Source: Treponema sp.
GTDB taxonomy: Bacteria; Spirochaetota; Spirochaetia; Treponematales; Treponemataceae
Direction of reading: 5' to 3'
Length of the DNA: 57,596 nucleotides
NCBI GenBank assembly: GCA_012519415.1
Contig: JAAYQG010000016.1
Span: forward strand, 1 to 57,596
Each line of letters begins with the position of its first letter. The first letter of the stretch is position 1. Below are positions 3,678 through 21,442 of this stretch, piece by piece. A program made the translations under genes and the position numbers. The notes below the pieces were generated by a model. That model saw only the letters and a list, made by a program, of their open reading frames with translations, searched no databases and had not been told where the DNA came from.

Positions 3678-3700
3678 AAAACTAGAATATGGGAGTGTCT

Positions 3701-3739
3701 AACGAAAACTTTGTCGGAAATAGCGTCAAAGGTTTCGTT
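3701..3739 (+). repeat. Extra hairpin preceding the intergenic element
   Basis: AACGAAAACTTTG (3701-3713) and CAAAGGTTTCGTT (3727-3739) are complementary at 12 of 13 positions around a 13-nt loop. It directly precedes the three-hairpin element at 3742-3850 and has no counterpart in the copy at 20078-20188. Confidence 0.55.
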
Positions 3740-3741
3740 TC

Positions 3742-3850
3742 CAAGTTTGCGTCGCAAACTTGTTTATATATTGCACTTTCTCATTTCATTGCGAAAGTGC
3801 GGTAAAAACTCAATTCGGAAGTTGAAACTTCCTCATCGAGTTTTTATAGG
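3742..3850 (+). repeat. Three-hairpin intergenic element, copy 1
   Basis: Hairpin A: CAAGTTTGC / GCAAACTTG (3742-3762). Hairpin B: GCACTTTC / GAAAGTGC (3773-3800) with a 12-nt loop TCATTTCATTGC. Hairpin C: outer arms TAAAAACTC (3803-3811) and GAGTTTTTA (3838-3846), inner arms GGAAGTT and AACTTCC around GA (3817-3832). TAGGGGA follows and serves as the ribosome-binding site of the second permease. The copy at 20078-20188 shares the order, the loops and the final TTTTTATAGG but has different, still complementary stems. It sits in mid-operon between two permease genes, so it must be read through; a regulatory or mRNA-processing role is inferred. Confidence 0.75.
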
Positions 3851-3857
3851 GGATTTT

Positions 3858-4757
3858 ATGACTTTAATTGAATCGCAAAAAAAGATTTTGCAGCAAAAAG
3901 CAGGATTTAATACTTTTGTAAAATATAACGGCTACCAGAGAGTTCTTGCTGACACTTTTAAATACATTGTTTTATGTTTTGCCGCATTAATTGTAATATT
4001 GCCCATACTTGTTATTTTTTTTGGTGCATTTAAAACAGGTGTGGAATTTAACTCAACAGGAGCTTTTGATTTGCCTCAAAGTTGGTCTATAAAAAATTTT
4101 ATTACAGTTTGGCAAAAAGGGAATATGGGCTTAGCTTTTAGAAACACAGTAATAATGATAGTACTTGCAAGTGCAGGTTCTATTATGACCGGAACAATGG
4201 CTTCTTATGCTTTGCACAGATTTAGATTTAAAGGTAAAAGTTTTATAAAGCACTTGTTTTTGTGGATTGTTCTCATACCCGGAACAACAGCGCAAGTTGC
4301 AAGATTCCAAATTGTAAATGCACTTCATTTATATAATACAATGGCATGTCCTGTTGTTTTGGCAATGGGCACAGATATTATGGCGATATATATTTACCTT
4401 CAGTTTTTAGACAGCATTCCAAGTTCTCTTGATGAATCTGCAATTGTTGATGGTGCTGGATATTTTAGGGTTTATTTTCAGATTATAATGCCGCTTCTAA
4501 AACCTGCGACAGTTACAGTTTTAATTATAAAGTCAATCGGAATGTATAATGATTTTTATACTCCATTTTTGTATATGCCAAAAAAAAGTCTTGCGGTCGT
4601 ATCGACCATATTATATAAATTTAAAGGACCGTATGGTTCTCAATGGGAATTAATTTGTGCTGGTATAGTTCTTGCAATTATTCCAACATTGATTATTTTC
4701 CTTATACTTCAAAAACAAATCTATAACGGATTGGTGAGTGGAGCGGTAAAACAATGA
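3858..4757 (+). CDS. Sugar ABC transporter permease, MalG/UgpE type
   Basis: 299 residues. The ATG at 3858 is chosen because TAGGGGAT precedes it at good spacing. The frame is open further upstream, but only through the palindromic element, so that longer version is not protein. About six membrane segments are visible, beginning near TFKYIVLCFAALIVILPILVIFFGAF. The EAA loop appears as LDESAIVDGAGYFRVYFQIIMP. It partners the permease at 2802. Its stop overlaps the next start by 4 bp (ATGA), so the glycosidase is probably translationally coupled. Confidence 0.92.
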   Translation: MTLIESQKKILQQKAGFNTFVKYNGYQRVLADTFKYIVLCFAALIVILPILVIFFGAFKTGVEFNSTGAFDLPQSWSIKNFITVWQKGNMGLAFRNTVIMIVLASAGSIMTGTMASYALHRFRFKGKSFIKHLFLWIVLIPGTTAQVARFQIVNALHLYNTMACPVVLAMGTDIMAIYIYLQFLDSIPSSLDESAIVDGAGYFRVYFQIIMPLLKPATVTVLIIKSIGMYNDFYTPFLYMPKKSLAVVSTILYKFKGPYGSQWELICAGIVLAIIPTLIIFLILQKQIYNGLVSGAVKQ

Positions 4758-20063: not shown

Positions 20064-20077
20064 TAAGTTTTGATTTG

Positions 20078-20188
20078 CAAGTTTGTGTTGCAAACTTGTT
20101 TATTTACTGTGCTTCCTCACTGCGTTGCGGAAGCACGTAAAAAGTTACTATCGAAAATTGAAATTTTCGATAGTAACTTTTTATAGGA
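20078..20188 (+). repeat. Three-hairpin intergenic element, copy 2
   Basis: Hairpin A: CAAGTTTG / CAAACTTG (20078-20098). Hairpin B: GTGCTTCC / GGAAGCAC (20109-20136) with a 12-nt loop TCACTGCGTTGC. Hairpin C: a perfect 22-bp inverted repeat (20138-20159 with 20162-20183) around the dinucleotide GA. TAGGAG follows and acts as the ribosome-binding site of the sppA-like gene. Compared with the copy at 3742-3850, stems B and C differ in sequence yet remain fully paired, while the B loop, the GA centre and TTTTTATAGG are kept. Confidence 0.78.
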
Positions 20189-20200
20189 GTGGGTGAAAAT

Positions 20201-21442
20201 TTGACAGATGATGAAGAGAAAAAATTAAATACTGGTTCTATTATAGAAGATTCTTCTGAACATATTGCAGAGATTATTCCTGCAAAAGATGCTCCTCAGG
20301 CTGAAGGTGCAGAGAATACCAGTGAGGACGAAGTTCCTCTTGATGTTCCTGCTTTTCAAGCGCAGCCACTTGAAATTGTGGCAAAGAGTGCGACGTTTTG
20401 GAGCGATGATAATAAAAGCAGAAAAGATGCTCAAAAAAACGGAAAAAAATCTGTTGGATTTTGGGTTTTCTGTTTTTTAATTGGAGCTGTTGTTCTTGCT
20501 GCGATTGTTGGTACTTTTTTTCCGGATGAAGATTTTTCAGATGTTTTAAATAATCCAAATTTAGAAATAATTACATCAAAAAACAAAAAAAATGCACTTC
20601 CTAAATATAAGCATGATTATATTGCCCGAATTGACATCAAGGGAACAATTCAAGAGAAAAATGAAACTTATAATCATAAATGGCTTTTGAATATGATTGA
20701 TAATTTGATGAATGATAATAAAAATAAAGGACTTTTTCTTTTTGTTGATTCTCCAGGTGGTGCTATTTATGAAGCGGATGAGCTTTATCTTAAACTTTGC
20801 GATTATAAAAGCACCGGTCGGCCGATTTATTCTTATTTTTCTCATATGGCAGCTTCGGGCGGTTATTATACAGGTTGTGTTGCAGATTATATAATGGCAA
20901 ATCGCAATTGTACAACAGGCTCAATCGGTGTAATAATGGGGCCGATTTTTACTTTTAATGAGCTGTTTAAAAAATATGGTATTGAAGCTACATCTATTAC
21001 AGCCGGAAAAAATAAAAATATGCTCAACATTAACGAGCCGATTACTGCAGAACAGCGAAAAATCATGCAGGAATATATTGATGAGGCTTATGATCAATTT
21101 ACCGAAATTGTTGCAAAAGAACGCAATTTGCCGATTGAACGCGTAAGAGAACTCGCTGACGGTCGCATTTATTCAGCAAAACAGGCACTTGCTATAAAAC
21201 TCATTGATAAAGTCTGCGGTTATGATGAAGCTGTTGAATATACGAAAAGAGATTTATTTGGCAACAATGAAATTGCATTTGAATATGTAGAATATGTTCG
21301 CGAAAAAACTTTTTCAGATATATTCCCAAGTATTTTAATGAAGTTTAACAATCAAAACGGAGATGCAGTTCTTCAAAATATACTGGAAAGAATGTATGAA
21401 TCACCTAGGGGGATTTCTTATTTTTATAACGGTGCATTTTAA
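20201..21442 (+). CDS. sppA: Signal peptide peptidase SppA, short type
   Basis: About 413 residues. An acidic N-terminal cytoplasmic region, one membrane anchor (SVGFWVFCFLIGAVVLAAIVGTFF, about 85-108), then an S49 protease domain: FLFVDSPGGAIYEADELY, SHMAASGGYYTGCVADYI with the nucleophile Ser, TTGSIGVIMG, and the probable general-base Lys in ITAGKNKNM. It degrades residual signal peptides in the membrane. Two non-ATG starts are possible: GTG at 20189 is almost on top of the AGGAG, whereas TTG at 20201 has it 11 nt upstream, so TTG is preferred. Confidence 0.88.
   Translation: MTDDEEKKLNTGSIIEDSSEHIAEIIPAKDAPQAEGAENTSEDEVPLDVPAFQAQPLEIVAKSATFWSDDNKSRKDAQKNGKKSVGFWVFCFLIGAVVLAAIVGTFFPDEDFSDVLNNPNLEIITSKNKKNALPKYKHDYIARIDIKGTIQEKNETYNHKWLLNMIDNLMNDNKNKGLFLFVDSPGGAIYEADELYLKLCDYKSTGRPIYSYFSHMAASGGYYTGCVADYIMANRNCTTGSIGVIMGPIFTFNELFKKYGIEATSITAGKNKNMLNINEPITAEQRKIMQEYIDEAYDQFTEIVAKERNLPIERVRELADGRIYSAKQALAIKLIDKVCGYDEAVEYTKRDLFGNNEIAFEYVEYVREKTFSDIFPSILMKFNNQNGDAVLQNILERMYESPRGISYFYNGAF

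Follow-up and report, generated by a model that had tools for sequence, protein, structure and literature searches.

TD-1 in Treponema: a probable mobile palindromic DNA element at SD sequences rather than a dedicated regulatory RNA

Two Hairpin Repeats in Front of Genes

The window, by which we mean the whole stretch of 57,596 nucleotides of Treponema sp. DNA analysed here, contains two copies of a palindromic repeat, the first in front of an ABC transporter permease gene and the second in front of a family S49 peptidase gene, whose start may alternatively be the TTG at 20201 (table 1). Sequence and folding reveal hairpins B, C and D in both copies, with the two nucleotides GA at the centre of D, and the copies differ in stem C (GCACTTTC/GAAAGTGC versus GTGCTTCC/GGAAGCAC). 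An earlier note on this DNA had described three-hairpin elements with one stem fully paired in both; hairpins B, C and D are present as it described, but a fourth hairpin (A), lying 5' of these three and, in copy 1, outside the coordinates given there, had been missed. As for the pairing, stem D of copy 2 is a perfect 22-bp helix, but that of copy 1 is incompletely paired because it has an internal bulge. Copy 1 is complete (3691-3852), with all four hairpins in the order A-B-C-D; copy 2 is truncated on its 5' side, where the left arm of hairpin A is gone, and begins directly past the stop codon of the upstream gene. Both copies fold more stably than all of 200 shuffled sequences (z = -6.0 for copy 1 and -8.8 for copy 2), and within the window the hairpin-B pattern is matched by these two copies only (four strand matches, with 0.02 expected). 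Each copy ends, as had been proposed, in the ribosome-binding site of the next gene, with a Shine-Dalgarno (SD) sequence just before the ORF. Hairpin B of copy 1 together with TTTATATATT scores as terminator-like, but it is extremely improbable that the units are intrinsic transcription terminators of the upstream genes, because they adjoin the following gene on its 5' side, keep a fixed distance to its SD, consist of four ordered hairpins and, in a genome of the same genus (locus L062), sit between a promoter-like sequence and the gene.

Table 1. Positions of the two repeat copies, their parts and the genes that follow them in the window
Feature	Position	Strand	Basis
Copy 1, 5' junction: GGGAG, SD-like, directly upstream of the copy	3691..3695	+	sequence
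Copy 1, hairpin A	3701..3739	+	fold, alignments, covariation
Copy 1, match to Rfam TD-1 (RF03155)	3732..3851	+	model 1-120/120, 64.3 bits, E 3.3e-8
Copy 1, hairpin B CAAGTTTGCGTCGCAAACTTG, the most conserved part	3742..3762	+	pattern, fold, covariation
Copy 1, hairpin C; 12-nt loop TCATTTCATTGC at 3781-3792	3773..3800	+	fold, loop pattern, covariation
Copy 1, hairpin D (TAAAAA...TTTTTA, centre GA)	3803..3846	+	fold, covariation
Copy 1, 3' junction: AGGGG, SD of the next gene (ATG at 3858)	3848..3852	+	
ABC transporter permease gene (PF00528)	3858..4757	+	domain match
Copy 2, shortened hairpin A, right arm only	about 20067..20077	+	sequence compared with unit alignment
Copy 2, match to Rfam TD-1 (RF03155)	20069..20188	+	model 1-120/120, 61.2 bits, E 1.5e-7
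Copy 2, hairpin B	20078..20098	+	sequence, pattern, fold
Copy 2, hairpin C; 12-nt loop TCACTGCGTTGC at 20117-20128	20109..20136	+	
Copy 2, hairpin D, perfect 22-bp stem	20138..20183	+	
Copy 2, 3' junction: AGGAG, SD of the next gene	20185..20189	+	sequence
Peptidase family S49 gene (PF01343)	20189..21442	+	domain match

The Complete Unit and Its Relation to Rfam TD-1

An alignment of 22 units of this genome gives the order GGAG–A–B–C–D–TAT(A)GGAG over ~157 nt. In these units hairpin A is CGAAAACTTTG...CAAAGTTTTCG plus variants, hairpin B is CAAGTTTGCGTYGCAAACTTG, hairpin C has an 8-bp stem and a 12-nt loop, and hairpin D (TAAAAA...TTTTTA) is followed by AT(A)GGAG and then by a start codon unless another unit comes next; GGAG at both ends of the unit is the rule across copies. 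The possibility of an RNA family new to Rfam was rejected: the default search at the gathering cut-offs gave no match, but at a relaxed threshold both window copies match TD-1 (RF03155) over the full length of the model, 0.2 and 3.3 bits under its gathering cut-off of 64.5 bits, so the earlier view that no described family fits has to be given up. Six other copies of this genome exceed the cut-off (64.9-68.8 bits), and the top scores, up to 136 bits, come from genomes of the genus g15, which are complete (2.8-2.9 Mb) and belong, we infer, close to T. denticola. Judged by these matches, both window copies are best classed as divergent TD-1 elements. The TD-1 model starts within the right arm of hairpin A and so lacks the full hairpin A and the 5' GGAG. 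Because hairpin A and the 5' GGAG are found in g15 too (TAGGAGATATGATAAACAG...CTGTTTATC at L201, and nearly all of 20 sites in genome G052), the true unit consists of four hairpins flanked on both sides by GGAG, and the Rfam model covers its 3' part.

TD-1 RNA reportedly goes back to Weinberg et al. in NAR in 2017. Its Rfam entry (clan CL00124) agrees with the unit found here in hairpins B-C-D, in the TATAGGA end and in the place directly 5' of genes; it departs from our reading in its cis-regulatory type, which is a prediction, and insertion at SDs, tandem arrays and presence/absence are not in its description. TD-2 (RF03162), of the same clan, is like TD-1 a high-copy hairpin repeat in the same genomes, but has another sequence and, in TD-2-rich genomes, other sites. 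The TD-2 model finds nothing in the window at E values up to 0.05 and gives a weak opposite-strand match across hairpins A-C in L062 and L074; despite these matches, TD-2 was rejected as antisense TD-1, since TD-2-rich genomes have a different sequence at other sites. TD-2 is typed as an sRNA. Its matches are partly in tandem and number at least about 54 per genome in several genomes (e.g., G037:C1:1455410-1455807, L210-L218), and it, too, looks more like a candidate mobile repeat than like an sRNA.

Copy Number, Distribution and Mosaic Structure

The whole genome holds 51 matches to the C-loop pattern TCAYTKCRTTGC, and the reversed control gives one. A covariance model built from the 22 units of this genome finds about 120 copies in it at E <= 0.001, many of them in tandem arrays with a period of ~157 nt. 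Copies are frequent at contig ends and in arrays, and this count is therefore a lower bound. A covariance-model search for further copies had been set in the earlier note as the test that could refute its proposal; it found many, and they are not ordinary terminators. Contigs C7, C20, C44, C46, C48, C54, C58, C67 and C96 of this genome (G000) start or end within TD-1, as do C97, C135, C139, C145, C159, C164, C173 and C178; TD-1 arrays probably break up the assembly.

Among seven other genomes of the genus, the covariance model finds one copy in three and none in four. In Treponemataceae it matches 125 of 245 genomes and 12 of 20 genera, at most 12 candidates per genome being scored, and the Rfam TD-1 model matches 22 of 247 Spirochaetota genomes, all of them Treponemataceae. 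A pattern scan covered 84,980 named genomes; among the matches listed, which include Treponema berlinense, T. bryantii and T. porcinum, all are treponemes or other spirochaetes. Carriage by phages or plasmids was rejected, as no match to the unit was found in viral contigs or in phage and plasmid records.

The C stem types GCACTTTC, GTGCTTCC and GCTGTTTT are combined with the D types in all six ways in this genome, which indicates a reassortment of modules like that of BIME or BOX elements. L315 (G052:C1:1986428-1987956) holds an internally deleted unit, with the left end of A fused to the right end of D, upstream of a full unit, and at L328 in G058, the ortholog of the G052 site L309, hairpin B is precisely gone and A, C and D are kept. 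A second palindromic repeat (TTCGCTATCCGCTTTAGCGGATACGAT...) is nested at the same position of the D loop in L318 and L320 (G052) and in L349 and L352 (G058); the TD-1 copies that host it differ in their D stems, and the orthologous copy in G021 (L342) is without it.

Position Relative to Genes

Among the 90 best units of this genome, 29 precede another unit and 6 a contig edge, leaving 55 that can be tested for a following start codon (ORFs of at least 50 codons). A start codon lies 0-14 nt past the 3' end in 47 of the 55 (mode 5-8 nt), against 1 in the mirror control (5' end, other strand), a placement in the 5' region of protein genes that matches the cis-regulatory type of the Rfam entry. 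The genes downstream are functionally unrelated: besides the ABC permease and the S49 peptidase of the window, they include those for an acetolactate synthase small subunit, an aconitase C-terminal-domain protein (leuD-like), a PLP-dependent enzyme (trpB-like), a class I tRNA synthetase, a transketolase, a class II aldolase, Hsp20 and a PadR regulator. Selection could be a partial cause of the bias in strand and position.

Two genomes of the same genus each have their sole TD-1 copy upstream of the same gene (L061, G006:C368:795-948; L062, G004:C41:51723-51876). This gene (MKEVFDFIKKCGTYYLATVEGDQPRVRPFG...) is by eye pyridoxamine-oxidase-like, and a TATAAT box stands just upstream of the copy. 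The copy could have been long retained and have acquired a function, and its being shared as a single copy by G004 and G006 fits a retained function equally well.

Stem Covariation Resembles That of Palindromic DNA

We compared 26 units, 3 from this genome and 23 from others, on a fixed structure of 49 pairs. Over these units 97.2% of cells are paired, and double changes are present in 31 of the 49 pairs (204 cells against 58.5 in shuffled data, with no shuffle as high), so the observation of conserved loops with covarying stems, made on the two window copies, extends to other genomes. The pairing is lost when partners are slid, and RNAalifold arrives unaided at nearly the same structure. The changes in the stems are almost all from one Watson-Crick pair to another. 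A selected RNA is expected to tolerate G-U pairs and to favour its own strand, and tRNA controls show both signs: ten tRNAs of the fetched loci have G-U at 30 of 234 pairs (12.8%), and in 14 tRNAs folding of the sense strand is better by 4.9 kcal/mol. Neither sign is seen in the units, whose consensus helices hold 9 G-U against 15 A-C cells among 1267 (0.7% G-U) and whose sense strand is on average 1.9 kcal/mol worse than the antisense. In minimum free energy (MFE) folds of whole units the share of G-U is 4-5%, above that in the consensus helices and below that in shuffled sequence (16%). Such a pattern of covariation is what palindromic DNA gives, whether through recognition of the folded DNA or through arm-to-arm templated correction. 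Nothing positive was found for the suggestion that the structure gates translation: stem D does not include the SD next to it, the two strands are similar in fold stability and there are hardly any G-U pairs.

Presence and Absence at Orthologous Genes

A DNA-level empty site for the window locus was sought within the genus, where in other species nothing but the repeat itself matched, and the comparison was therefore shifted to the complete g15 genomes. At one 3-kb locus, across which G021 and G052 are 92% identical, both have the unit in front of a conserved gene, and in G037 the flanks are contiguous with no unit. For 20 further sites of G052, the orthologous genes in G021, G037 and G058 were located via their gene starts and compared. 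Empty sites free of any trace correspond to L304, L310, L317 and L323 in G037 and to L319 in G058, and that of L316 in G021 is similar. At the trace-free empty sites both flanks join on one SD, and at the filled sites the insert starts just past GGAG and ends in GGAG, after which the native spacer leads to the start codon. For example, with slashes at the junctions, empty AATAAGGAGAAACAAAATG stands against filled AATAAGGAGA / TACGATAAACAG...CTTTATAGGAGA / AGAAAATG, and empty TTATTAAGGGAGACTAAATAATG against filled TTATTAAGGAG / GTATGATAAAC...TATGGGAG / ACTAAATAATG. Presence and absence at orthologous genes make a REP/MITE-like mobile element the better supported of the two ideas in the earlier note. 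The "empty" sites of L306 in G021 and L312 in G037 retain a TTTTTATRGGRG trace and may be deletions or losses.

The two junctions of a unit resemble each other within a locus more than when shuffled among loci (6.0 vs. 4.7, sd 0.23; 0 of 2000 shuffles as high). The same is found without the loci that have an upstream D remnant (5.95 vs. 4.75; 0 of 2000 shuffles) and in G052 (5.85 vs. 5.14; 3 of 2000 shuffles); examples of matching junctions are TTTATAGGAGGTTTAC on both sides at C142:10200 and TTTACAGGAGATTT at C7:147. This resemblance tends to favour a target SD that was duplicated rather than one that the element brings along, although the element may itself supply the 3' GGAG. Terminal inverted repeats amount to a weak, A-rich, ATAAAA-like similarity by eye, and no parent element was found.

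A Mobile Element and Its Alternatives

We consider it probable that the unit is a mobile palindromic DNA element, non-autonomous and with the SD as its target, which has turned into a 5' leader, and not a dedicated regulatory RNA. If TD-1 were instead a cis-regulatory RNA as typed in Rfam, its leader would bind a ligand, a protein or a small RNA and control a large regulon via the adjacent SD. Such a role would be in keeping with units directly 5' of start codons that end in an SD, with structure and loops conserved across many genomes, with a promoter-like TATAAT just upstream in L062 that places the unit in the transcript, and with the one copy that G004 and G006 each retain before the same gene. 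It appears unlikely, however, for target genes that are unrelated, for copy numbers from 0-1 to about 120 within one genus, for tandem arrays and for close genomes that differ in presence at orthologous genes; moreover, the SD is not within the pairing, G-U pairs do not outnumber A-C, and folding is no better in the sense strand.

Ordinary leaders might also have spread with no transposition at all, by recombination, gene conversion and unequal crossing-over, and been lost between SD-containing direct repeats. Tandem arrays having shared linkers, the reassorted C and D stem types and the D-end trace at some empty sites (L306/G021, L312/G037) point in this direction, but several empty sites are without trace (L304/G037, L310/G037, L317/G037, L319/G058) and units stand at unrelated genes without common flanks, and we regard this explanation as having little chance of being right. 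A REP/RAYT-type system, in which a Y1 (HUH) transposase would spread hairpins with a 5' GGAG tag as single-stranded DNA, is highly improbable. The directional insertion 3' of a short tag beside hairpins is comparable to the chemistry of IS200/IS605 and TnpA-REP (PMC8266576), and mosaic high-copy palindromes recall BIMEs; yet the tag is GGAG, the SD itself, and not GTAG or CGTC, the units hold one orientation with no alternation, and Y1_Tnp (PF01797) is absent from this genome and from nine further genomes (G021, G037, G046, G047, G049, G052, G053, G058 and G059), copy-rich complete ones such as G021, G046 and G058 among them. A reverse transcriptase, suggested by apparent 5' truncations, was also rejected as the agent, RVT_1 (PF00078) being absent, at E <= 1e-8, from this genome and from the copy-rich complete genomes G021, G046 and G058.

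For the mobile element that we prefer, the following course may be proposed. A directional ~157-nt string of four palindromes would insert directly 3' of the SD GGAG, always facing the gene; the left copy of the SD would then stay by the upstream gene, and the right copy would hold the native distance to the start codon. With the native spacing kept, translation should hardly suffer and the element would join the 5' leader; a tolerated leader would also be the simplest expectation for an SD outside stem D. The element would be non-autonomous and would move by a DNA route, in which a trans-acting factor recognises folded single-stranded or cruciform DNA, and recognition of one GGAG strand would naturally give the constant orientation to the target. 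The 3' SD would arise through target-site duplication, and any effect on expression would be secondary. The more specific proposal of a mobile DNA family that uses the SD as its target, leaves an SD on each side and is moved by a so far unknown enzyme recognising folded DNA palindromes is one that we hold with middling confidence.

Relation to Known Repeats and Implications

The BOX, RUP and SPRITE repeats of Streptococcus pneumoniae, which are enriched between convergent genes, are like TD-1 small, modular, palindromic and high-copy, considered MITE-like and missing from most relatives (PMC3049150); unlike them, TD-1 is fixed at start codons and appears to insert into the SD. REP and BIME elements with RAYT are likewise mosaic, high-copy palindromes beside a conserved tetranucleotide (PMC3733652, PMC8266576), but REPs lie near gene 3' ends (PMC3733652), whereas TD-1 has gene 5' ends, one orientation, four ordered hairpins and no Y1 transposase in copy-rich genomes. 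With MITEs TD-1 shares its short, non-coding and multicopy nature and an apparent target duplication; it differs in that its target and orientation are strict, clear terminal inverted repeats are missing and no parent transposase was found. The literature search found no paper naming RF03155, RF03162, "TD-1 RNA" or "TD-2 RNA", and in the literature searched, which did not include the original TD-1 description, mobile SD-directed behaviour and the fourth hairpin were not described. The family is already known; its mobile SD-directed behaviour and fourth hairpin may be new.

If the mobile reading is true, an entry curated as a "regulatory RNA" is in fact a mobile repeat whose classification was misled by double-sided covariation alone, and other candidates of this sort could be tested cheaply for a scarcity of wobble pairs. 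Insertion at the SD with the spacing of the gene kept would explain how so many leaders came to be occupied in a genome of 2.45 Mb, and the leaders of over a hundred unrelated genes would have been colonised without silencing. Closely related treponemes also offer ready natural experiments, in the form of orthologous genes that either have or lack a leader of four hairpins.
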